This document shows, piece after piece, positions 4,598 to 21,852 of a DNA stretch of 46,687 bases. A program made the translations under genes and the position numbers. Location of the stretch: IMG/VR virus record IMGVR_UViG_3300009008_000071, positions 1 through 46,687 of that record; one strand, given 5' to 3'. The notes beneath the pieces were generated by a model. That model was given only the letters and a program-made list of their open reading frames with translations. It was not told the origin of the DNA and ran no database searches. Origin of the DNA: a virus. Position 1 is the stretch's first letter. Each line of letters begins with the position of its first letter.

Positions 4598-5404
4598 ATG
4601 GTAATGCTATGTAATAAGGTGGACAAAGGTGAACTTGTTCAATTCTTAAGCGTAGTTGGATCCGATTGGGTCGCTGAAACTAAAGAGGACGGGGACAGAG
4701 TGAGGTTAATGTGTGAGAATGGGAACGTAAGGCTCTCAAACAGGCGTTACAGGGACGTGACGAGCACTTATCCTGAAATGCACACATTTGCCCACTCTCA
4801 ACAAGTCTTCTTAGACGGCGAAATGTGCGTGTTTAGGGATGGCATCTCTCAGTTCAATGAGGGAATTGCTTTCCGCTCACATTGTAAAAGCGAATCAACG
4901 GTTAACGCAGCTATGGCTAAGTATCCTGTCACATATGTCGTTTTTGACGTATTGGAGTTAGACGGGAAAGATTTGAGGAGTTTACCATATAGTGAAAGGC
5001 GGGAGATTTTATTGTCTTTGAATTTAACGCACCCAAACATTAAGGTTGCTGACCAATTCACTGACATTAAAGCCGCTTGGAATGAAGTTGAACGAACAGG
5101 TGCTGAGGGCTTAATTCTCAAACAGCTGAGTAGTTTGTATCGTGAGGGTTATCGAACATCAAACTGGCGTAAAGTTAAGAATGTTAAGGAAACGGACTTA
5201 GTCTTTACGAAGTATGAACAAAACCCACAAGGTATAACTGTTGAGAATGATGATGGAATCCGTTGTTTAGTTGGTGGAAAACATCAACACGAAGTTAAGA
5301 AGTTAATTGACTTGGGTGGTGAAGCCAACATAACAATTAGGCACTTAGGCAAAACGAAAGCTGGAAAGTATCGACAACCAGTTTACATGAAGGTGGTGGT
5401 TTGA
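4598..5404 (+). CDS. ATP-dependent DNA ligase, minimal type
   Basis: Nucleotidyltransferase that seals nicks through an enzyme-AMP intermediate. Motif I ETKEDGDR gives the adenylated lysine K29; motif III is FLDGEM (71-76), IIIa YVVFDVLELDG, IV EGLILK (170-175) and V WRKVK (190-194). After motif V only about 75 residues remain, enough for a small OB domain; there is no N-terminal DNA-binding domain. At 268 aa it is the size of minimal viral or accessory bacterial ligases, not the ~560-aa archaeal host enzyme. GGAGG lies 6 nt before the ATG. It may act in lagging-strand joining or end repair. Confidence 0.93.
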   Translation: MVMLCNKVDKGELVQFLSVVGSDWVAETKEDGDRVRLMCENGNVRLSNRRYRDVTSTYPEMHTFAHSQQVFLDGEMCVFRDGISQFNEGIAFRSHCKSESTVNAAMAKYPVTYVVFDVLELDGKDLRSLPYSERREILLSLNLTHPNIKVADQFTDIKAAWNEVERTGAEGLILKQLSSLYREGYRTSNWRKVKNVKETDLVFTKYEQNPQGITVENDDGIRCLVGGKHQHEVKKLIDLGGEANITIRHLGKTKAGKYRQPVYMKVVV

Positions 5405-5546: not shown

Positions 5547-6380
5547 ATGATAGAACGATTTGAAGAAGCTAAAAAGTTCTTTGAATCAAAAGATTTTCTT
5601 ATTGAGGATGACAAGTTGAAAGCCATCTTGGTTTCTATCAAGAATGGTTATCCTCTTTTGGCAGTTGGTCCAACGGGTAGTGGTAAGACACAATTTTTTA
5701 GTTTATTGAGCGAGTTTTTAGGTGGTAGTTTTGACTACTCATCTTTAAACGGCTCAATCACTATCCACGACTTAACGCAAGAGAGAATACTTGGTAAGAA
5801 TGGGTCTTTTGAAGAAAAAGATATGATTTTAGCGAAATGGTTAAGGAATGCTCAGAAAGGAATGAGTGTTCTACAATTGGATGAAGTTAACGCAGCGAAG
5901 CCTGAAACTTTGTTAGCACTACATCCAATAATGGATTTAAAGGGCGAGTTGAAGTTACCTTACACTGACGAAGTGCTAAAAGTTAACAAGAACGCAGTGT
6001 TAGTAATGTCCTGTAACGAGGGAGATGAATATTCTGGGATTAACGCTATGAATATGGCTTTCCAGAATAGGTATGTAAAAATACATTTTCCCTACATTCA
6101 AGGCGAGGAGTTAGCAACGTTATTGACACGTAAGACAAAAGTGCCAATGGAGATGACAACGGCAATTGTTGATACTTGGACTAAGTATATGGCAAGTAAG
6201 GATCCAGAGCAGCCAGTGATTTCTATCCGTATGTTGGAATATTGGTGTGAAATGTCTAAGGACTTGGGTCTTAAAGTAGCGGGACGCTTTACTTTTGCAG
6301 GATTGATTGCGAAAGATGAAGATGAACTTAACGAGATTCTTGAAGGTGACTTCTTTGTGAACTTGCCAAACGGAGGTTAA
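5547..6380 (+). CDS. MoxR/CobS-like AAA+ ATPase
   Basis: AAA+ ATPase of the MoxR/dynein-related type. Walker A GPTGSGKT (41-48), Walker B VLQLDE (108-113), sensor-1 Asn in VMSCNEGD (~157), and an arginine-finger candidate in FQNRYVKI (R175). Such ATPases work with a VWA-domain partner to remodel proteins or load metal ions (CobS with CobT, MoxR with CoxE-like proteins). The VWA partner is present 2 kb downstream at 8135, with zinc mini-genes between. GGGAGG precedes the ATG. Phages do carry CobS/CobT-like pairs, whose role is unresolved. Confidence 0.85.
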   Translation: MIERFEEAKKFFESKDFLIEDDKLKAILVSIKNGYPLLAVGPTGSGKTQFFSLLSEFLGGSFDYSSLNGSITIHDLTQERILGKNGSFEEKDMILAKWLRNAQKGMSVLQLDEVNAAKPETLLALHPIMDLKGELKLPYTDEVLKVNKNAVLVMSCNEGDEYSGINAMNMAFQNRYVKIHFPYIQGEELATLLTRKTKVPMEMTTAIVDTWTKYMASKDPEQPVISIRMLEYWCEMSKDLGLKVAGRFTFAGLIAKDEDELNEILEGDFFVNLPNGG

Positions 6381-6692: not shown

Positions 6693-7631
6693 ATGGCAGA
6701 AACGAAAACAGTGCATATCAAGTTTAACAACCCATACGTTGAACGGGCAGAACACTACGTTCGTATGGTGGGAATGAATGATATGCTTGGTTGCACTTTG
6801 ATTGGGCCGCCGGGTATGGGAAAGACGCACTTAGTCCAACATGTGCTGGATGATATGGGTGTTGAGTACAATACTTACGGTGGACACATCACTTTGGCTG
6901 AGATTTATGAGTATCTGTTTGAAAATTCAGATGCTTTAATCTTTTTTGATGATGTCAGTCAAGTGATTAACAAAACAGAGATAATGGAGATGCTCAAACA
7001 AGCTCTGAACTTGAGCGGGAAAGATAGAGTTCTACATTATCGGAGTAAAGGCGGAGTGTTAAGTCCTGGAGTTCCAAACAATTTTGTCTTCACAGGTAGG
7101 ATAATCTTTGCGTTCAATGCGATGGACAGGAACAATCCTAACGTTAAGGCAGTTATGGACAGGGCACCAATGGTAGAATTGAAGTATAGTAGAAAAGAAG
7201 TTCTTGAAGCGTTCTACAAAATTGCTGAGAATGAAGGTGGCGGTTTGATGGAACATGAGAAGTTAATTGTTGTGCGAGAAATTGAAGATTACACCGACAG
7301 CTCAATGGAAGTAAGTTTGCGTAAGCTGTTCATAGCGTTCAACATTTACAGAAGTTTCAAGAAATCTTTCGGAGATGGAAATTCTATTTGGGAAGCACAA
7401 GTCAGAGCATTGTTTGGTAAAAAGAAACAAAGCTGGATGAGAGAAATCATTGAAGAGTTGGTTGGTCTTAAAGGTAGAATACCACGAAAGCAACTAGCTA
7501 AAGAGATAGCTCTTAAGAAAGATATGAGTCCACGCAATGCACACCGAAAGATTGCTGAGTTTCTTGAATTAGAAGAAATTCATCAAAACAAGTTGAAAGG
7601 CGGAGACATAAGTCTTGAGCCGTTTAAGTAG
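6693..7631 (+). CDS. AAA+ ATPase with C-terminal winged-helix-like region
   Basis: P-loop ATPase: Walker A GPPGMGKT (38-45), Walker B LIFFDD (82-87), sensor-1 in IIFAFNAMD (~142), arginine-finger candidate R157 in VMDRAP. The last 60 residues (RIPRKQLAKEIALKKDMS...) look like a helix-turn-helix. Distinct from the MoxR protein: it could be a DNA-binding loader or a partition-type ATPase used in replication. Starts after CGGAGGAATGAA. Length 312 aa. No family name can be given with confidence. Confidence 0.8.
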   Translation: MAETKTVHIKFNNPYVERAEHYVRMVGMNDMLGCTLIGPPGMGKTHLVQHVLDDMGVEYNTYGGHITLAEIYEYLFENSDALIFFDDVSQVINKTEIMEMLKQALNLSGKDRVLHYRSKGGVLSPGVPNNFVFTGRIIFAFNAMDRNNPNVKAVMDRAPMVELKYSRKEVLEAFYKIAENEGGGLMEHEKLIVVREIEDYTDSSMEVSLRKLFIAFNIYRSFKKSFGDGNSIWEAQVRALFGKKKQSWMREIIEELVGLKGRIPRKQLAKEIALKKDMSPRNAHRKIAEFLELEEIHQNKLKGGDISLEPFK

Positions 7632-8134: not shown

Positions 8135-9880
8135 ATGGCAAAGTACAACCAGAAAACACTCAACGGTATCTATAAAAGGGTAGTTGGTGCAATGTCTGGT
8201 TTAAGCGACATTAATGTTGAGATTAACCCGCAAGTTAGTCCGCACTGGGATCCACAGGCAAGAACGATTCGAATGCCTTTAACAATTTCTTTTGCTGAGA
8301 ACGATGAAGAAGATTTCACGTTAGGTAGAGGAATTTGTGTGCACGAATCATCACACGTTTTGTTCTGTCCAGATTACGATGCGAAAACTAAGGATCAAGC
8401 GGAATGGTTCAACGTGTTGGCAGATTGTAACAATGAGTATAAAGTTACGGAGTTGTGGCCACACTTAAAAGAGCCGTTAAGTAACAAAACTCACACGTTG
8501 GTTAAGAAAAGACCAGAAGTGCTTAAATCCGATAACCCTTTCATGCAGGTACTGATGAGATGTGATAAGTTGTCAAACCTCAAGCCTGAATTTCCCCCAA
8601 ATTACAGTCCTAACCTCGTAGAATTTGTGGAGTCTGTCTCGCAGCAGTTCCACAAACAGGACATATATAGGGCCACTGGTAAAAAACTTATGGAGTTCAC
8701 CGATTGGGTGAACTCCCAGTGGTCTTCCCTCAAAAAAGAAGTTGAGGAAGAAATGGGAAAGAATGGTAACGGCAAGGTGTGCAAATTACAGAAAGAACTA
8801 GGTGATTTGATTAAAAACCGTGCTGGTAAAGAGGAAGTTGACGCTAAAAAGCAAGAGATTGAAGAAGCAAACAAGAAACCTGAGTGGTTTAAGGATGAAG
8901 TTGACAGAAGGATGGTCCGAGAAGCTGCTGGTGGTGACAAAAACTACAACGAATATTCCCTTGAAGAACTGAAAGAGATGTTAAAGAAAACTGAAGGGAG
9001 TGTTAAGGATGGTTCAGAAGGTGGTTGGGGTTGCAGTAACGGAAGCATAGATGATAAGGGAGTTGAACAGGTTGACCCTTATGATAATGAATGTGGAAGT
9101 GTACCACCCATACCTGACAAGTCCGAAGCATACGAGAATGGTAAGAAAATTAACAGAGCGTTGAGAAGAAAGATTAAGTTGCAAGAGGATTTTGAGAAGA
9201 GGCACAGAAGTGGTAGGCTTGATATGGCCGAAGTTCGCAGACAAGTAGGACAAATGGGACAGATTTACAAAGAGAATGTGTTTGAGAGAACAAACGATTT
9301 CACCCGGGGAGGGCAATGGGCAGTGGAAGTACTGTGCGATTGTTCAGGTTCTATGGGAACACAGAAGATGGCAAGAGCTAAACAAGCGTTGGCAACACTG
9401 GCATATGCACTTGACGGATTACCAAACGTGAAGTATGCGCTGACAGGGTTCAGTGAACACGGTGGCCCAATTGACATACAAGTCAAGAAGTTCAGTGAGA
9501 AGAAGTTAAACATACGGAAGCTTGACCTGCTACACGCTGATGGTGGAAATTGCGATGGGTTCAACATAAGGAGTGCAAGTAAAAGACTGACTAAGTTCAA
9601 GAACATGAGGAAAGTGTTAGTAGTGATAAGTGATGGGCAACCAGCTTATTGTGACGGAATAGATGACACTAAGAAATCTGTGCAGTTGGCAGAACACTTT
9701 GGGATTGGTGTGCTTGGGATAGGAATTCCTGGGTGTACTGAGAAGTCTCTGGCAGAGATATATCCAAAGAGGTATATGTTTGAGAACACTAAAGATTTAC
9801 ACAGGGACTTAACTAACTTAATCTTAGCAGAGTTAGGACAGAAAGACAAGGTTAAGTTGGTGAAAAGGAGGTGGGAATGA
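8135..9880 (+). CDS. CobT-like VWA protein with an N-terminal HExxH motif
   Basis: 581 aa. The N-terminal part holds HESSH (70-74), an HExxH zinc-protease signature, with a candidate third ligand in DCNNEYK (~101). The middle is a charged, helical linker. The C-terminal third is a von Willebrand A domain with an intact metal site DCSGS (D402, S404, S406) and a later VVISDGQP strand. Expected to pair with the MoxR/CobS-like ATPase at 5547: ATPase rings plus VWA partners remodel or metallate target proteins. The combination with a metallopeptidase-like motif suggests a target-processing machine. TAGGAGG lies 8 nt before the ATG. Confidence 0.85.
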   Translation: MAKYNQKTLNGIYKRVVGAMSGLSDINVEINPQVSPHWDPQARTIRMPLTISFAENDEEDFTLGRGICVHESSHVLFCPDYDAKTKDQAEWFNVLADCNNEYKVTELWPHLKEPLSNKTHTLVKKRPEVLKSDNPFMQVLMRCDKLSNLKPEFPPNYSPNLVEFVESVSQQFHKQDIYRATGKKLMEFTDWVNSQWSSLKKEVEEEMGKNGNGKVCKLQKELGDLIKNRAGKEEVDAKKQEIEEANKKPEWFKDEVDRRMVREAAGGDKNYNEYSLEELKEMLKKTEGSVKDGSEGGWGCSNGSIDDKGVEQVDPYDNECGSVPPIPDKSEAYENGKKINRALRRKIKLQEDFEKRHRSGRLDMAEVRRQVGQMGQIYKENVFERTNDFTRGGQWAVEVLCDCSGSMGTQKMARAKQALATLAYALDGLPNVKYALTGFSEHGGPIDIQVKKFSEKKLNIRKLDLLHADGGNCDGFNIRSASKRLTKFKNMRKVLVVISDGQPAYCDGIDDTKKSVQLAEHFGIGVLGIGIPGCTEKSLAEIYPKRYMFENTKDLHRDLTNLILAELGQKDKVKLVKRRWE

Positions 9881-10979: not shown

Positions 10980-11169
10980 CTTCTGGACCTCCGTTTTTTA
11001 ATTTCACAAGATGAGTTTTCCCATCTATGATTATGTATATTAAACCGTACTTGTGCATCTGGTTGATTCTACGGTTTACGTTGGTTCGGTTAACTCCCAA
11101 TTCTCTCGCAATGAGTTTAACTGGAACCCAGCCGTTTCTCTTTCTCAATATTGTTGTTATGTTTAACAT
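10960..11169 (-). CDS. Winged-helix DNA-binding protein (~69 aa)
   Basis: Contains WVPVKLIARELGVNRTNVNR, a textbook helix-turn-helix with recognition helix, followed by INQMHKYGLIYIII and a wing (DGKTHLVKL). The frame is open further upstream (to 11241), but that part lies inside the nuclease gene; the ATG at 11169 gives a compact MarR/Lrp-like wing domain. Probably a transcription regulator of this arm. Confidence 0.65.
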   Translation of the reverse strand: MLNITTILRKRNGWVPVKLIARELGVNRTNVNRRINQMHKYGLIYIIIDGKTHLVKLKNGGPEDGTKKR

Positions 11170-11590
11170 ATGCAGCCAACATTCCTCGTATCCTGGAAGC
11201 TGCTTCTTTTCTGCCGTTACAAAAGATGACATCAATCCCATACTTAAATTTAAGAGTGTTAAGGATTTTGATTACCACATCACCACGCATCTTTGTAAAG
11301 TGTGATCCTTCAAAGTCCTTGTTAAGTATCTCTGTATAACTTCGCTCTACAATGATAGCAAAGTAATCCATCTCCAGAGCTCTCTCTAACTCTTTCTTAA
11401 ACCTTTTGTGTCCTACTCCTAATGATGAAAACAGGTCGTTTGGATTCTTTCTTTCAAACGCAATTTTGTCCTCATATCCTAAGATTGAATAATCACCTGT
11501 TTTTAGCGTAACGTACCGAACATCTTCCACCACTTTTGAACGTCTAAAATCTAAAGGTAATTGTTCCCTATTATCAATTACTATTATCAT
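11117..11590 (-). CDS. ERCC4-domain (XPF/Mus81-type) nuclease
   Basis: Structure-specific DNA endonuclease fold. MIIVIDNREQLP is the first strand with catalytic D6/E9; GDY at 32-34 and FERKNPNDL (45-53) complete the GD-Xn-ERK-X3-D signature (D33, E46, R47, K48, D52). At 157 aa it is the bare nuclease domain without the helicase or the HhH2 domain of cellular XPF, as in other viral ERCC4 nucleases. Likely processes branched replication or recombination intermediates. Family is typical of archaea and eukaryotes and supports an archaeal host. Confidence 0.88.
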   Translation of the reverse strand: MIIVIDNREQLPLDFRRSKVVEDVRYVTLKTGDYSILGYEDKIAFERKNPNDLFSSLGVGHKRFKKELERALEMDYFAIIVERSYTEILNKDFEGSHFTKMRGDVVIKILNTLKFKYGIDVIFCNGRKEAASRIRGMLAAYVKHNNNIEKEKRLGSS

Positions 11591-11980: not shown

Positions 11981-12134
11981 CTTCAATCGCTGACCACCCC
12001 GGTGGTAACCTCTTCTTTTTTTTAGCCATCTCTTTCACCCCATACTTCTTTCTACATTTTAAACAAAAGTAAAAGTCCCCATCAAAGCTGGGGACAATTA
12101 CGTGTTTGCACTTAGTCAAGTTTTCTGACTTCAT
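11964..12134 (-). CDS. Zinc-finger-like basic mini-protein (56 aa)
   Basis: CKH ... CLKC (residues 9-11 and 24-27) suggest a C-H-C-C site; the C-terminal half is basic (MAKKKKRLPPGW). Overlaps the gene for the OB-fold-like protein at its 5' end and the zinc ribbon at its 3' end. Unknown role. Confidence 0.55.
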   Translation of the reverse strand: MKSENLTKCKHVIVPSFDGDFYFCLKCRKKYGVKEMAKKKKRLPPGWSAIEDVNTK

Positions 12135-12438
12135 ATTGTGTGTTCTTTGCGGTACCTGTTCTCTTCACAAAGATTTTCACCTCGTGTTCTGCGTTTTCCA
12201 AAATCGGTCTTAAGCCGACCAAAGCTCTAATTGAAGTTACGGTCCAAGTTTTTGGCGGTGAACACGGCTCTGCATTAAGCTCTAAAACGTCCATCACAAG
12301 GCCTGGCCTAAACTCGCCATCATCTCCCTTGAACGTTTCTTGTGGTTTCCAATTTGCCACTACCATATTGTACTCTACACCTTCTTCAATCTTGACGAAC
12401 GATCCGCCAAGCATTCCATCCCAATTTATTTCTCCCAT
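12112..12438 (-). CDS. Probable OB-fold ssDNA-binding protein (108 aa)
   Basis: Single domain beginning with INWDGMLGGSFVKIEEG, then VEYNMVVANWKPQETF, a TWTVTS strand, LRPILENAEHEVKIFVKRTG and a QYEVRKL end. The series of strands with conserved Trp and a final R-T-G...Y-V matches small viral proteins that I recall annotated as single-stranded DNA-binding or replication-associated OB-fold proteins. The location among nuclease and primase genes agrees. Assignment is by pattern only. Confidence 0.55.
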   Translation of the reverse strand: MGEINWDGMLGGSFVKIEEGVEYNMVVANWKPQETFKGDDGEFRPGLVMDVLELNAEPCSPPKTWTVTSIRALVGLRPILENAEHEVKIFVKRTGTAKNTQYEVRKLD

Positions 12439-12844: not shown

Positions 12845-13003
12845 CTACTTTTTATCATTGCTTCGTAACTTATCTTCTTTGCCATTTTCCATTTGGTAAT
12901 GAATAATGCAATATCCATCAATTATTGAAGGCATCTTGCACTTTCTTCCTTTGTTTTCAAGGAATTGTTTGCACCTCTCATCATTGTCAATATTAAACCT
13001 CAT
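12845..13003 (-). CDS. Small zinc-binding protein, C...C...CxxxH type (52 aa)
   Basis: ERCKQFLENKGRKCKMPSI then GYCIIHY: the RCK-x-n-G-x-x-CK...YC-x-x-H pattern is that of short cysteine/histidine modules common in phage and mobile-element proteins. The start at 13003 overlaps the stop of the upstream gene; the longer frame to 13072 lies within that gene. Unknown role. Confidence 0.6.
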   Translation of the reverse strand: MRFNIDNDERCKQFLENKGRKCKMPSIIDGYCIIHYQMENGKEDKLRSNDKK

Positions 13004-13337
13004 CGAATCTAACCCCACAGTAAGCACAAACCCAGTGAACATTCTCTTCTTCTCCACCAATGTACTCTTCACTCACTCTTATTTTATCAACGTGATTACA
13101 CCTTTTACCTTGTCCATAATCCACATATAACCTTCCTAAATGGTCAGCTTTAAGCCCAACCATATCATATTCAGCATAATGTAACTTAAACTCATTAATG
13201 TCCCAGTCTTGAACTAAGCTCATTTTAGTGTCATCCCTGTACTCTAACACCCGGTCTGGTCCTTGAAATGTACATTTAGTTAAAAGATGACACTCTTTCA
13301 CCTTTTTCCTGCTTTCAATATATTCTTTTAAGTCCAT
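12993..13337 (-). CDS. Hypothetical protein with C-terminal zinc site (114 aa)
   Basis: N-terminal half MDLKEYIESRKKVKECHLLT, a beta-rich middle with LKADHLGRLYVDYG, and a C-terminal CNH ... CAYC that likely binds zinc. The frame stays open to 13463 but that part crosses the GTATACAC repeats and lacks a start with a ribosome site, so the ATG at 13337 is preferred. The repeats lie immediately upstream and may control it. Confidence 0.6.
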   Translation of the reverse strand: MDLKEYIESRKKVKECHLLTKCTFQGPDRVLEYRDDTKMSLVQDWDINEFKLHYAEYDMVGLKADHLGRLYVDYGQGKRCNHVDKIRVSEEYIGGEEENVHWVCAYCGVRFDEV

Positions 13338-13359
13338 CTTAATATCTCTCAACTTATTT

Positions 13360-13501
13360 GTATACACATAGGGTGAGCCCCAATAGATTCTGACAGAGCT
13401 GGACCAACGTCCATCCTCCGTATACACAGAACGTATACACGCAGGTTCGACGTTGCTATACACCGTTTCAAAGTATATTACCCCTCACCCTCCGTGTATA
13501 C
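13360..13501. repeat. GTATACAC repeat cluster
   Basis: GTATACAC is found at 13360, 13420 and 13433, with a 7/8 copy (CTATACAC) at 13456 and an inverted copy (GTGTATAC) at 13494. The core GTATAC is palindromic. The region is more GC-rich than its surroundings and lies between the primase-helicase stop and the next gene. Either an operator array or part of a replication origin beside the replication gene. Confidence 0.6.
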
Positions 13502-15754
13502 CTTTGTGTTATTTTGTATCCATTTGTCTATTTTTGCCTCTTGATTTTGGGCCTTTTCTGCACAAAAACCAGTTACATCACCCATATATTGAGGACTTAT
13601 CTTAGTTTTTACATAAGTTGCTTTCATTGGTGGCTTCACAATATTTTCAAAAAAACCAGCTTCACAAAGGTTAATCATAGTTTTTCCTGCACCACTCTTA
13701 CTAATATTACACCATTTACACACATCATCAATTTGGAAACTTGACACATGAGTTAATTGTCTTACAATAAGTTCATAAAATTCTAAATCTCTTTGCCCAA
13801 TGCCTTGAGAGGAAGCGTTAATAATGTCTCCACCATACTTATAAGTTATAAAAGCATCTCTCCAATCAGCAATAAGTACTCTCTGCCCATCAATATCAAC
13901 CAAATACCTATTCTTTTGGTGGAAATAAGCAGAAGATTTAATCAATGATATAACTTTTTTAACATCTCTTCTACCCCTCACAGTTTCATAACTCATAAAA
14001 TCCATTAATTCTTCAGCAAAAGGGAACACTACCCTATCTGGTTTCTTCAATACTTTGATTGCTGCTGTGATTTCCCTATGATTTGGAACTTCTTTGGCTG
14101 TAATATTATTAAATGATTTGAGATAATGTTTCATTACTTGTTTGGTTTGATCTTTAGTTTGGTCAGTGTTAAGAATCCAGGCTCGTGATTTCAGTTGTTC
14201 ACCTTCATCAAACTCCTCAGCGTTACAAGTTACAAATAACACATCTTTAAATGAAATTTCTTTAGCACCCGTAACATGTTCTTTAACTCCCTTATTCATA
14301 ACTTCTTGTGCTTCAAGTAATGTTAATTTTCCTTCACTTATGGCAACTCTTAACTGCTCAACAACGTTCTTTGCACCTTGCAGTTCTTCAATGATAACAA
14401 TTTTCCCCGCCCATTTCTTAGCTAACACATCCATATGGTTAAGGCTTGCCTGAGTAAACCGAGAATATGTAAAGTATTCCTCGCCCTCTTCACCAAACAA
14501 TTGAGCAACGGCTTTCATAACGTGTGATTTGCCACTCGCTGCTGGCCCGTCAAGCATAATACACCATTCTGGGTCAAACTCTTTGGTTAAATAAAGTAAG
14601 AATAGTACTACTTTAACAGACTCTTCACCAATAACCATTGCATTTAATGCGTCTTTAATTTTATCTAACGGATAGTCTCCATCAAAGAAGGATAATTCAT
14701 CTTTAAATTTCTCTTGATTATAAGGACAATCAGTATCATCACACACACCAATACTTCTTGCGTGCCCACAGTTCCAATAAGGATTAGGTTGAGAATAAAT
14801 CCAATCTGCCCACATATCTGCTTCATCTTGTTTAAAGGGTTGAGGAAGTTGGGGACAGGATTGGACATATCTTGAGAGTACCTCTTTTGTGACAGGAAGT
14901 TCCAAGTTGTCCATTCTTGATGCTATGGCCAGAATCTTCGCCCCAACGTTCCTCTTCCCTATTTTCAAACCCTCTTCTAAAAGTTTTTGAACACAAGGAA
15001 CATTCATAAATTTACCGTCATAATCAATGGCTTTTAATTCTTTTTTATGTTGAGGAGTTAATTTTTCAAAATATTCTTCTACAATTTCAGCAACAAAACC
15101 TTCAGAAATTTTATAAGTTTCAATCTCTTTAGGATATTCAACGTCATCAAACGTAGAAACTTTTGGTTGTGGTTTGTTTTTTGGTAACACATCATAATAA
15201 GTTTTCCAAGCAGTTTTCATCTCATAAGTGTCTGGGTCCACTTTGATGTTAGCGCCACCACAACAACGGATAAGACTCGTCTTACCACCAACCCCATCCC
15301 ATTTAAGTTTGGCTAAGTCAACAACTTTCCCGTGACCTATTAAATTAGTGTTAAGGCCACACTCATTAAGAATTTCTTTAGCAAACTTCATTCTTATAAG
15401 TTGATAAATGTCTCCTCCGTGGTCTATGACTTTATCAACCATCTCAAATATCTCTTTAGATTTAATATTTTCAAGACTTAAGAAATAATGTAAATGGACG
15501 GACTTATTCCCCGACCAAAATTTGTAAACAGGTATTTTTGAACTATCACTATAAGATACAATAGGAGTAGAATATTTGAGGTTCTGAGCATATGATTTGG
15601 CATCAAGCTCCATTACGACCTCTAAAGGATAAATGGTCCTGTGATCAAGTGGTGGAACAACCTTTCCGTATTCCCACCTTTTTCCTGGCCTATAATCACC
15701 CGATTCTGTCCGTCTATTTCTTGTGAAATAAACCGGAGCTTTCATCACATCCAT
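13478..15754 (-). CDS. Primase-helicase: PriS-like core, PriL-like FeS domain, AAA+ helicase
   Basis: Frame open to 15877 (799 codons; numbering here from that point). An archaeo-eukaryotic primase core: VVMELD (motif I, E90/D92), WSGNKSVHLH (motif II, 121-130), VVDLAKLKWDG with D187 and LIR (motif III). Residues ~290-390 carry VPC (C295), CGHARSIGVC (C370, C379) and C384 in the order of the four cysteines of the PriL 4Fe-4S domain. Then an AAA+/SF3-like helicase: Walker A GPAASGKS (444-451), Walker B VIIEE (494-498), sensor LFVTCN. A winged-helix end follows. The first 30 codons overlap the RHH gene, so the start is taken as ATG 15754; a TTG at 15793 is possible. Confidence 0.85.
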   Translation of the reverse strand: MDVMKAPVYFTRNRRTESGDYRPGKRWEYGKVVPPLDHRTIYPLEVVMELDAKSYAQNLKYSTPIVSYSDSSKIPVYKFWSGNKSVHLHYFLSLENIKSKEIFEMVDKVIDHGGDIYQLIRMKFAKEILNECGLNTNLIGHGKVVDLAKLKWDGVGGKTSLIRCCGGANIKVDPDTYEMKTAWKTYYDVLPKNKPQPKVSTFDDVEYPKEIETYKISEGFVAEIVEEYFEKLTPQHKKELKAIDYDGKFMNVPCVQKLLEEGLKIGKRNVGAKILAIASRMDNLELPVTKEVLSRYVQSCPQLPQPFKQDEADMWADWIYSQPNPYWNCGHARSIGVCDDTDCPYNQEKFKDELSFFDGDYPLDKIKDALNAMVIGEESVKVVLFLLYLTKEFDPEWCIMLDGPAASGKSHVMKAVAQLFGEEGEEYFTYSRFTQASLNHMDVLAKKWAGKIVIIEELQGAKNVVEQLRVAISEGKLTLLEAQEVMNKGVKEHVTGAKEISFKDVLFVTCNAEEFDEGEQLKSRAWILNTDQTKDQTKQVMKHYLKSFNNITAKEVPNHREITAAIKVLKKPDRVVFPFAEELMDFMSYETVRGRRDVKKVISLIKSSAYFHQKNRYLVDIDGQRVLIADWRDAFITYKYGGDIINASSQGIGQRDLEFYELIVRQLTHVSSFQIDDVCKWCNISKSGAGKTMINLCEAGFFENIVKPPMKATYVKTKISPQYMGDVTGFCAEKAQNQEAKIDKWIQNNTKVYTEGEG

Positions 15755-15782
15755 CAATCTTTTAAGGTACTCTTGTTGTTTT

Positions 15783-15929
15783 TTAATTCCTGTCAATATA
15801 AGTTTTGATATATGAGTTAATGAAATTTCTGATTTGTTCTGAAGCAGTAGAATCATTGTCTCTACAAAGACTAACAAACTCGTCCCACTTCACATCAGAA
15901 ATCTTGAAATTTACGTTTTTTACTACCAT
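15783..15929 (-). CDS. Ribbon-helix-helix regulator (48 aa)
   Basis: VNFKISDVKWDEFVSLCRDN gives the beta strand and first helix, then TASEQIRNFINSYIKTYI the second helix: a CopG/Arc-type repressor fold. TATA box TTTATATA is centred 27 bp upstream of the ATG with no Shine-Dalgarno site, so the mRNA is probably leaderless, an archaeal habit. It overlaps the primase frame and probably regulates its own operon. Confidence 0.7.
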   Translation of the reverse strand: MVVKNVNFKISDVKWDEFVSLCRDNDSTASEQIRNFINSYIKTYIDRN

Positions 15930-18301: not shown

Positions 18302-18859
18302 TTAGTACAACTTAACGTTTTTAAGTTCAGCGTCTCCGTCTTCAACGTGTACTAAGAATTCAACTTTCTTCTTAATGTCCCGTTTAAAGTCTTCTACTTT
18401 AGCTACTAACTTAAATTTATACTCTTCATCATCAAAGTCTGATTTAAGAACTTTCACGTCTTCAAAGTCATCATAGAACTTAACAAACTCTAAGTCATCT
18501 TCGTCTTTGAACAAGTTTTTGTCCTCAAGCATATCGAAACCTTCTGCTTCTAATTCTGCCCAAGCTAATGCAAGTGCTTCATCTTCTGCAAGAACCTCTT
18601 CTTTACAGTCTTCAAGGTCTTCGTATACTAACCGATCACACGCAATCTTTAAGAAAGCGTTGTCTTCTACTTCGACAATTTTCTCAACTTCCACTTCAAC
18701 TGGTACTTCTACTTCCTTTAGTACCTCAACTTCAACTTCTTCCACAACTTTAACTACTTGTGGCTCTGGTTGTAAAGCGAATCCGATTCCTCCGCCTAGT
18801 AATCCCGCTGCAACTACTGCTGCTGCGCCCCAACCTAAAACTTTTTTCATTTTTTTCAT
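18302..18859 (-). CDS. Membrane-anchored Val/Glu-rich stalk protein (185 aa)
   Basis: The start at 18859 (not 18907) is fixed by GGAGGAGACTAAA. The N-terminus MKKMKKVLGWGAAAVVAAGL gives a signal anchor rich in Ala and Gly. Then a run of alternating Val and Glu with Lys (about 30 residues) that should form an extended beta or rigid stalk, and an acidic C-terminal domain of ~100 residues with many Asp/Glu. Exposed outside the membrane, it could be a cell-surface or virion-associated protein, for example for exclusion or adsorption. Unrecognised family, though similar designs occur in phages. Confidence 0.65.
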   Translation of the reverse strand: MKKMKKVLGWGAAAVVAAGLLGGGIGFALQPEPQVVKVVEEVEVEVLKEVEVPVEVEVEKIVEVEDNAFLKIACDRLVYEDLEDCKEEVLAEDEALALAWAELEAEGFDMLEDKNLFKDEDDLEFVKFYDDFEDVKVLKSDFDDEEYKFKLVAKVEDFKRDIKKKVEFLVHVEDGDAELKNVKLY

Positions 18860-18909
18860 TTTAGTCTCCTCCATTTTACTGGATTTAGTCTTAGAATATT
18901 TCATCATTT

Positions 18910-19737
18910 TTAAACATTTTCCTTATCCTTTATAAAGGATTTTTTGGTCACAGTTATGCTTTTTTGTGCCCAACTATGCTCATCGTTAAAGGAAAACCAT
19001 ATCGTTCCGTATTGTGGGTTGTACTTCTGTGGTAACTTGCCCCAATTCTTTATTGCGTTGTCAAGATAGAAAGTGGTTTCTTGGGTGTACCAATGCCCGT
19101 CACTGTGTAACCAAGTTAAATAGAAATGTCCACCTAATCCAAAAGGTATTGACCCTCTGTGATTAACATTCCCACAAATACACTTTAACCTGTGCTTAAC
19201 GTGATGCCAACAATTTAACTCTTTGAATATTTGTCTAAGAACGTAATACATTAAAATTCCAATATCATCACAATCGTTACCTTTGTCTCTGTCGTCAAGT
19301 ATTTGCTCTGGACACTTCCACAACTCACTCGGTTCTTTTGCGTACTTGAACTTGTTTGATTTAACCCACTTCATTACAGCTAACGGAACGCCATCCAAAT
19401 CGTCAATACTAAGGCTGTAAGCATTAACAATCTCACGAGCAATGTTTTTAATACTTGGAAAATCGTACTCTTTAACATATTGTGTGACCCACCTCCTGTT
19501 CGGAGCTTTATAGAATATTTTTGATTTAACCCATTTAGAATTCCAAAAATCCTTGTCATTTACGTCCACCTTCCTTGTTAAGTTACCCAACTTGATAGAT
19601 AACTCTTGGTTTCGTTGCACTAATTCATCTAACCTGTTACAAAGTTCATCTCTTTCTTGGTCAATGATAGCGAACTCTTTGATGATGTTGGGATAGTGGT
19701 TGATTCTGTACCACCATTCTTTAATCGTTGAAATCAT
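18910..19737 (-). CDS. Transglutaminase-like cysteine enzyme (275 aa)
   Basis: N-terminal ~55 residues form a coiled coil (IIDQERDELCNRLDELVQRN). The rest has the transglutaminase-like order: DKGNDCDDIGI with Cys156, GGHFYLTWL with His204, and HWYTQETT with an acidic residue (E220) as the third member. This fold is used by cell-wall and protein-modifying cysteine proteases; archaeal virus pseudomurein endoisopeptidases use a comparable Cys-His-Asp set. Next to tail fibres and a holin-like gene, so it may be the lysin or a tail-tip peptidase. Confidence 0.7.
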   Translation of the reverse strand: MISTIKEWWYRINHYPNIIKEFAIIDQERDELCNRLDELVQRNQELSIKLGNLTRKVDVNDKDFWNSKWVKSKIFYKAPNRRWVTQYVKEYDFPSIKNIAREIVNAYSLSIDDLDGVPLAVMKWVKSNKFKYAKEPSELWKCPEQILDDRDKGNDCDDIGILMYYVLRQIFKELNCWHHVKHRLKCICGNVNHRGSIPFGLGGHFYLTWLHSDGHWYTQETTFYLDNAIKNWGKLPQKYNPQYGTIWFSFNDEHSWAQKSITVTKKSFIKDKENV

Positions 19738-20549
19738 TTTATTTTCATTATGAATACTACATCCATTGCCGGTGGTATGTGACTTGCAGTTCCTGTGTTT
19801 CCACCATCAGTCCAATAAACAGTACCTGGACCCGAACCACCATTATTGCCACCGTCACTCCAATTTTGTGTATGGGAGTGTGAATTAGATGAAGTTATTG
19901 TATCTCCAGTTCCTACGTCTGAAGTACTTGCTCCCCTAAGGAATTTACTTGTGGTATCTGAGTTCCCATTTAAATTGGGTATTGTCCCTCCATTTAAAGG
20001 GCTCTCTGGGTCAGCACTTCCACCAGTTAAAGCCGTCCCATCACATAAATGCCAAAATGCACTAAGTGTTCCTGATATTAATGCAGGCATATTTGCGTGG
20101 TCGGGTAACCAAGCCTTAATAGTCCCGATTACATCCTTATCGTCCTGATTAATATCTAACATTAATTGGCCTGTTCCATTAGCTATCCCAATCCTAACTG
20201 CACTAATTGTTGTAGATAATGCCCCGGGTGTGGTGTCCAAGTAATAGGTTTCCTTATCAGTAAATGCTGCAGCTTCGTAATATACCCCTCTTGTTTGAAG
20301 TGTAACATCATTACCCGCTGTTGCTGTATCTGCTGCTATCCCAGTAACTCTATTCAATGCGTGAACATTAGCGTCAGAAAGGTAAGCTTTACCTTCATTT
20401 GTTGCATCTTTTAAATAAATGAAACACGCCTCACCAGCAGAGATATTCTCTCCTGCTTCTACTGTGATAAAGTTACCACTTTGATGATTTTGTTCTGAAC
20501 CAAAGTGTACATCTCCATCAATTTTTGGATATTCATTTTCGTTTGCCAT
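19734..20549 (-). CDS. Tail fibre with collar-type C-terminal domain, copy A (271 aa)
   Basis: N-terminal beta-rich region (FITVEAGENISAGEACF ... RGVYYEAAAFTDK) shared with the fibre at 21106. C-terminal half shows the tail-collar signature: FWHLCDGTALTGGS, SPLNGGTIPNLNG, FLRGAST, SHSHTQNW and a final IMKIK. Such domains knot at the tips of phage fibres and bind the host. Overlaps the lysin-like gene by 4 nt. Probably a receptor-binding protein. Confidence 0.82.
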   Translation of the reverse strand: MANENEYPKIDGDVHFGSEQNHQSGNFITVEAGENISAGEACFIYLKDATNEGKAYLSDANVHALNRVTGIAADTATAGNDVTLQTRGVYYEAAAFTDKETYYLDTTPGALSTTISAVRIGIANGTGQLMLDINQDDKDVIGTIKAWLPDHANMPALISGTLSAFWHLCDGTALTGGSADPESPLNGGTIPNLNGNSDTTSKFLRGASTSDVGTGDTITSSNSHSHTQNWSDGGNNGGSGPGTVYWTDGGNTGTASHIPPAMDVVFIMKIK

Positions 20550-21105: not shown

Positions 21106-21852
21106 CTATTTAATCTTAATTATCGCTACCATTGTAATGTTTATTGGGTCTCCCGCTGGCCCAGAAGCAATACTTCCTGCCGGTGCTAATGCTGCTGAAC
21201 TTCCACCTGCTTGAACAACTTGAGAACCAGTACCGTGTGAATGATTAGCTGCAGCTGTTTCAGTATCACTTGTGTCTCCGCATTTAATGAATCTACCATC
21301 ACCATTCATATCTTTAATTACCTGTCCGTCAAGAGGACTTTCTGCATCATTTATTGTAGTTCCATCACAAAGTTGCCAAAAAGCAGTAAGTCCAAAAACA
21401 CCAGCTAAATCGGCGTTATTAAATTTCACAGTTCCAACTGCGTCTCTATCATCTTGCACAATGTCAACATAAAGCTCATTAACACTTAAAGCCGTTCCTA
21501 TTCTAACAGCACTTGCCGTTGTTGAAAGCCCATTAGTCACTCCTTCAGTGCCCAAATAATAATCTTCTTTATCAGTAAAAGCAGCCGCTTCGTAATAAAC
21601 CCCTCTAACTCTTAAAGTTACATCTGCTCCCGATGCTGCCGCACCATAAGCAATACCATCTGCCCTATAATCATCTTGTGTTGAAGCATCTGAAACGTAT
21701 GCCTTTCCATCTGTCTTATGAATATAACAAACTTCTCCTGCAGAAATAATTTCTCCTGCTTCAACCGTTACTACTCCTCCTACTTGACTATTACCTTCTG
21801 ATGCAAAGTCAATATCGCCGTCTGATTTCGGCCATTCGTGTTCATTTGCCAT
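21106..21852 (-). CDS. Tail fibre with collar-type C-terminal domain, copy B (248 aa)
   Basis: Paralogue of the protein at 19734: same MANE(N/H)E start, GDID-FASE, VTVEAGEIISAGE, RGVYYEAAAFTDKE block and a FWQLCDGTTI collar region ending IIKIK. Between these ends the two differ, mostly in the Gly/Ser/His loop that would be receptor-facing. Two such fibres suggest either a heteromeric tip or alternative host receptors. Confidence 0.8.
   Translation of the reverse strand: MANEHEWPKSDGDIDFASEGNSQVGGVVTVEAGEIISAGEVCYIHKTDGKAYVSDASTQDDYRADGIAYGAAASGADVTLRVRGVYYEAAAFTDKEDYYLGTEGVTNGLSTTASAVRIGTALSVNELYVDIVQDDRDAVGTVKFNNADLAGVFGLTAFWQLCDGTTINDAESPLDGQVIKDMNGDGRFIKCGDTSDTETAAANHSHGTGSQVVQAGGSSAALAPAGSIASGPAGDPINITMVAIIKIK

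Follow-up and report, generated by a model that had tools for sequence, protein, structure and literature searches.

A viral protein with an AEP primase core, a PriL/PriCT-type four-cysteine domain, and an AAA+ ATPase in a single chain

A probable single-chain primase-helicase and its family

The protein encoded on the minus strand at 13478-15877 of the window, i.e., of the whole stretch of 46,687 nucleotides of viral DNA analyzed here, is quite probably a viral replication protein composed of an AEP primase of the TOTE/CAPP branch, a PriL/PriCT-type domain with four cysteines, an AAA+ replicative helicase, and a winged helix. The presence of an AEP core, a PriL-like domain, and a P-loop ATPase in one chain, as proposed in the initial annotation, is borne out. 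The overall design had been described before, in other viruses and on plasmids, and its novelty is limited; new is the combination of a TOTE/CAPP-branch AEP with a four-cysteine PriL-type domain and an un-named AAA+ family. The most interesting remainder is that the family links PriCT-1 to PriL by sequence with all four cysteines kept, one member passing the curated cut-offs for both in one stretch. In addition, the one un-named AAA+ family is paired with AEP, PriS-PriL, and DnaG-type primases, and the proteins offer compact single-chain models in which a PriL-type domain with its four cysteines can be studied together with priming and unwinding.

The region 13478-15877 is indeed one uninterrupted minus-strand frame of 799 codons, and its plus strand carries stop codons throughout. 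The TTG at 15877, with which the ORF is listed, is probably too early as a start. The likelier one is the TTG at 15796, giving a protein of about 772 aa, because the N-terminus of the ortholog described below corresponds to residue ~29 and because the first 27 codons overlap a small minus-strand ORF (15929-15783). The latter consists of 48 codons (MVVKNVNFKISDVKWDEF...), resembles by eye a small ribbon-helix-helix DNA-binding protein, has no Pfam match, and, provided that the primase begins at 15796, shares 14 bases with the beginning of its gene.

Neither single-sequence patterns for close relatives, searched in viral and genome contigs, nor a cysteine-motif pattern retrieved any relatives. 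The family was opened by a degenerate pattern, which found L005, whose N-terminus is cut off by the contig end, and L006; alignment-based scans then gave further relatives. Among these is L007, an ortholog of 779 aa with 52% identity over residues 29-789, spanning all domain junctions, and rescans with other patterns yielded this one close ortholog only. A more distant family (L008, L017, L018, L033-L052) comprises viral proteins of about 850-900 aa. Full-length relatives share the order AEP, four-cysteine domain, AAA+, and C-terminal domain. The observed architecture is not due to chance, because a full-length ortholog with 52% identity exists and exactly the four cysteines named at the outset are invariant in the family.

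The primase probably belongs to the TOTE/CAPP branch of AEPs

The AEP domain covers residues ~29-235 (15173-15793) and is delimited by its motifs and by profile matches of the ortholog and relatives. All three motifs that had been pointed out initially were found. In motif I, E90-L-D92 (15602-15610), the acidic pair is kept in all family members aligned there, and in motif II, S122-G-N-K-S-V-H128 (15494-15514), which is followed by L-H, residues S122, K125, and H128 are conserved. The features expected of the AEP superfamily, an acidic pair in motif I and S-x-x-K-x-x-H in motif II, are thus conserved across the family. The putative motif III, V186-D187-L-A-K-L-K-W-D-G (15293-15322), is identical in L007 except for one residue; no acid is aligned with D187 in the distant relatives, and an acid is conserved at this position only in the close pair.

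The window protein by itself matches no AEP, PriL, or PriCT profile, and the links run through its relatives. L007 matches AEP-TOTE with E=0.002, which is below the cut-off, and distant relatives match it with E values of 1e-28 to 1e-32; the latter also match the NCBIfam model of the CRISPR-associated primase-polymerase. The only PDB matches of L007 are 7nqd and 7nqf (E=0.02), which carry the file name TPR-region protein and which we take to be structures of CRISPR-associated Prim-Pol (CAPP). A PDB search with the pair of window protein and L007 gave no primase match. DNA_primase_S (PF01896), which detects the controls, has no match in the window or in 10 related records. Judged by these profile matches, the primase is better placed in the TOTE/CAPP branch of AEPs than with PriS proper, because relatives match AEP-TOTE and the CRISPR-associated Prim-Pol and none matches DNA_primase_S. 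The initial description as a PriS core therefore holds for the AEP core, but not for PriS in the strict sense. A candidate annotated as DNA primase (vir335) was discarded, its match being partial with E=1.

The AEP branch is common to TOTE and CAPP, and one distant relative is recognized by PrimPol models of PADLOC, so one might think of a defence or DNA-capture factor similar to TOTE or CRISPR-associated Prim-Pols instead of a replication enzyme. Such a role is highly improbable for a gene located on a tailed-virus contig near conserved small ORFs and the gene of an ERCC4 nuclease, the other arm encoding a ligase; furthermore, the window ORFs that were scanned include no recognizable cas or TOTE partner gene, and among CAPP homologs outside CRISPR the fusion of primase and helicase is the most frequent architecture and typically occurs in mobile elements (PMC8211822).

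The middle domain carries four invariant cysteines in a PriL-like layout

Alignments, profiles, and a model define residues 288-392 (14702-15016) as a PriL/PriCT-type helical domain. Its predicted cluster ligands are C295 (14993-14995), C370 (14768-14770), C379 (14741-14743), and C384 (14726-14728), in V-P-C, N-C-G-H, G-V-C, and D-C-P contexts, respectively. All four are invariant in the 12 of 12 sequences covering the domain, and the spacing of the last three, C-x8-C-x4-C, is constant in the 12. In the six-sequence family alignment, exactly these 4 of the 14 cysteines of the window protein are invariant. One cysteine precedes the helical core and three follow it, as in the Fe-S layout of PriL. 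The cysteine spacing in the window protein is tighter than in eukaryotic PriL.

The relative L049 (L049/G009) passes the cut-off of DNA_primase_lrg (PF04104) with 23.1 bits in frame versus 22.4, and the match spans residues 195-316, which hold all four cysteines (223, 300, 309, and 314). Among the controls this profile matches only the four archaeal ones; P0006 matches it at 0.041, and the window protein does not match it. PriCT_1 (PF08708) has no match in the window protein or the close ortholog, and its cut-off is passed in the four-cysteine stretch by six relatives, including L049, so that L049 passes the Pfam cut-offs of PriL and PriCT_1 in one stretch. For the L049 fragment the best PDB matches are chains of the eukaryotic DNA primase large subunit (PriL), with marginal E values of ~0.02. 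The model of the window domain is all-helical with a core pLDDT of 75-92. Searched against a viral library it matches primases, including an ‘Archaeal/eukaryotic-type DNA primase large subunit’ (E 0.039, probability 0.97), and also an unnamed viral protein of 764 aa (34% identity, E 3e-7). Against the PDB this model gave nothing significant (best E 1.5); PriX chains (4wyh and 5of3_C) are among the weak matches, 4wyh with a TMt of 0.59, an rmsd of 3.1, and E 3.8. PDB profile searches gave no PriL match with the 12-sequence domain alignment and, with a 7-sequence alignment, an archaeal PriL at E=1.3, which we do not count as proof.

PriCT-1, PriCT-2, PriX, and the Fe-S_N subdomain of PriL are reported to be homologous (PMC5862659), so a match to PriCT does not argue against PriL. 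Such a match had been named initially as speaking against a PriL-like domain; it was obtained, in that six relatives pass PriCT_1, but it is not a clean one, for L049 passes PriL and PriCT_1 alike. Could the domain nevertheless be a zinc-binding PriCT-like module, with structural zinc on the four cysteines, in an ordinary PrimQH/CAPP-type primase-helicase? Beyond the PriCT_1 matches of the six relatives, it is common for Prim-Pols to carry a PriCT or Zn-binding domain between their AEP and ATPase parts (PMC5862659), and the C-terminal domains of CAPP have conserved cysteines and are termed PriCT-like (PMC8211822). We consider this quite unlikely, as a single cysteine ahead of a helical domain of ~70 residues and a cluster of three behind it correspond to the layout of the PriL cluster and not to a CxxC zinc ribbon, one relative passes the PriL cut-off over all four cysteines, and a fusion protein of plasmid pTN2 with four such cysteines is brown when purified, consistent with a cluster (PMC3973330). 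That the middle domain is of the PriL/PriCT type with a predicted cluster-binding set of cysteines is therefore well supported, and the PriL-like assignment made initially stands. By analogy with the brown pTN2 protein a cluster, probably 4Fe-4S, is predicted; Fe-S and Zn are not separable by sequence.

The published comparison of PriCT and PriL was based mainly on structure models and, by sequence, on two of the four cysteines of PriCT-2 (PMC5862659). Tentatively, the viral family might be an intermediate between PriCT-1 and PriL, having a PriCT-1 fold with all four cluster cysteines of PriL; viral primase-helicases might then retain, or might have seeded, the PriL arrangement, and PriCT-1 might be a PriL-type domain minus its cluster.

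The AAA+ ATPase and the C-terminal domain

Residues 404-690 (13808-14668) form an AAA+ ATPase, a putative helicase, which is recognized by homology to gp063 of HRTV-27, to plasmid CHC2/Toprim proteins, and to the relatives. The P-loop seen initially is present as a Walker A motif, G444-P-A-A-S-G-K-S451 (14525-14548), whose G and K are invariant. In the Walker B motif KIVIIEE (14384-14404) E498 is invariant, as are R565 of a putative arginine finger LKSR (14183-14194) and R634, R636, R637, and D638 of a putative sensor 2, RGRRD (13964-13978). Membership in the AAA+ class is thus indicated by Walker A, Walker B, and arginine finger motifs that are invariant or conserved in the family; curated AAA profiles give sub-cut-off matches only with the window protein. 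The homology to HRTV-27 gp063 was obtained with an hhalign probability of 97 (E 1e-10), and the plasmid CHC2/Toprim-ATPase proteins show 29% identity.

The helicase could not be assigned to MCM: PF00493 has no match in the window or in 10 related records, and 14 of 14 controls match. The lack of an MCM match is compatible with an ATPase that melts origins or acts as a loader, like ORC/Cdc6 or a clamp loader, in which case a host helicase would unwind the DNA; there are also weak matches to a clamp loader PHROG and to Hda/DnaA-like profiles, and ORC1 and OCCM chains are among the top fold matches of the poor full-length model. This function is unlikely, since the ATPase family is fused to, or located beside, unrelated primases, where a replicative helicase is usually found. 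For this same reason we infer that the AAA+ ATPase is a putative replicative helicase.

On bacterial plasmids, members of the AAA+ family are fused to CHC2/Toprim (DnaG-type) primases (L004, 722-3811, and plasmid matches), and we regard it as one ATPase family with interchangeable primase types. SSV7_B471 and its fusellovirus relatives (L032, 2260-3675) have an ATPase related to that of L005 beside a gene annotated as DNA helicase.

Model and fold matches indicate a winged-helix-like domain at the C-terminus (residues ~695-760, 13598-13795). Within a full-length model that is poor as a whole (pLDDT 52) and was used only for the C-terminal part and the middle domain, residues 700-760 are predicted best (pLDDT 65-85). 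MarR-type winged-helix structures are among the fold matches of the model (E 0.009-0.06), and the winged helix postulated initially is plausible.

Comparison with known single-chain and split systems

The implied uniqueness of the protein was not confirmed, as it is preceded by the primase of Nanoarchaeum equitans, PolpTN2 of pTN2, BcMCM of phBC6A51, proteins of Hafunaviridae, and CAPP-helicase and PrimQH proteins. A class of replication proteins of the type AEP-PriCT/Zn-ATPase-WH has been described (PMC5862659), as has one of CAPP-helicase proteins encoded by mobile elements (PMC8211822). CAPP_A/AEP-TOTE proteins with a helicase (PMC8211822) and the distant relatives share with the window protein the AEP branch, the four cysteines, the AAA+ part, the C-terminal part, and their order. 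Unlike the window protein, the distant relatives (L008, L017, L018, L033-L050), which are of ~880 aa and ~22% identical to it, have an inserted region between the cysteine domain and the ATPase, and PriCT_1 and AEP-TOTE profiles match clearly in them but not in the window protein.

BcMCM from the Bacillus cereus prophage phBC6A51 is described as a PriS-PriL-like N-terminus fused to MCM (PMC3973330, PMC4538821), the N-terminus being weakly homologous to AEPs, and helicase, primase, and polymerase activities are reported (PMC4538821). Like the window protein it combines primase and helicase in a single chain; its helicase is an MCM, a family whose profile finds no match in the window protein. 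PolpTN2, from the Thermococcus plasmid pTN2, likewise unites AEP, a PriL-like four-cysteine domain, and a WH in one chain, but it lacks an ATPase domain, a separate SF1 helicase being present, and the His of motif II is replaced by Gln (PMC3973330, PMC5862659). The primase of N. equitans also has an N-terminal PriS and a C-terminal PriL region in one chain (PMC2643942); in contrast, it is cellular and is described as a primase only, without a helicase domain.

In Hafunaviridae (HRTV-27 gp062/gp063, HF1/HF2, and others) the primase is annotated as a PriS-PriL fusion and an ERCC4 nuclease is encoded nearby. HRTV-27 gp063, which adjoins the primase gp062, is homologous to the AAA+ domain of the window protein; primase and helicase-like protein are encoded there by two genes, the helicase-like one first, as opposed to one chain in the window. 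A direct profile comparison of halovirus primases with the pair of window protein and L007 was not significant, and we therefore claim homology for the ATPases only and not for the primase halves. The HRTV-27 PriS-PriL primase (L003, 7374-8615) is without the last three cysteines and its Hafunaviridae relatives L028-L031 keep them, which suggests that HRTV-27 is a natural case of possible cluster loss. The plasmid CHC2/Toprim-ATPases, e.g., WP_247322184.1, again have the homologous AAA+ part (29% identity) fused to a primase, which is DnaG-type with a CHC2 zinc finger and Toprim, unlike the AEP of the window protein.

Genome context and a proposed mode of action

With its HK97-type capsid, portal, and terminase the contig is that of a tailed virus; searches with the terminase and the ligase gave mixed matches from bacterial and archaeal viruses. 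Downstream of the primase, on the minus strand, follow a small cysteine-rich (CxxC) protein (12993-13463), a small ORF (12112-12438) with 43% identity to L021, and an ERCC4-type nuclease (11117-11590; Pfam 8e-12, PHROG 5e-21, 33% identity to HRTV-27), all three of which are also conserved beside the ortholog. An ATP-dependent DNA ligase (4598-5404, Pfam 3.8e-33) is encoded on the plus strand in the divergent arm. No match to a family A or B DNA polymerase (PolA/PolB) was obtained in the window, which may be a fragment of the genome. To call the protein a self-sufficient replisome starter, as had been suggested, is thus an overstatement, and since no such polymerase was found, a hand-off of the primer to a host polymerase seems likely.

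In the mode of action that we propose, the winged helix and a predicted AAA+ ring would load onto the viral origin or fork, where ATP hydrolysis by the ring would unwind DNA. On the strand thus exposed the AEP core would make primers; the domain with the four cysteines, probably of the 4Fe-4S kind, would hold the template and the initiating nucleotide as the C-terminal domain of PriL does, and the primer would be passed to a host DNA polymerase.

The plus-strand arm also encodes a MoxR-like AAA ATPase (5547-6380), a second AAA ATPase (6693-7631), and a VWA (CobT-like) protein (8135-9880), the latter being conserved (59%) beside the ortholog. The GC skew switches sign at about 10000, at the junction of the plus- and minus-strand arms. 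In the protein encoded at 18302-18907 a membrane-like N-terminal segment is followed by a valine-glutamate repeat (VEVEVLKEVEVPVEVEVEKIVEVE). Two tail-type proteins encoded next to each other, at 19734-20549 and 21106-21852 (MANENEYPKIDGD and MANEHEWPKSDGD), are paralogs that resemble each other in their N-terminal halves and have diverged at the C-terminus.
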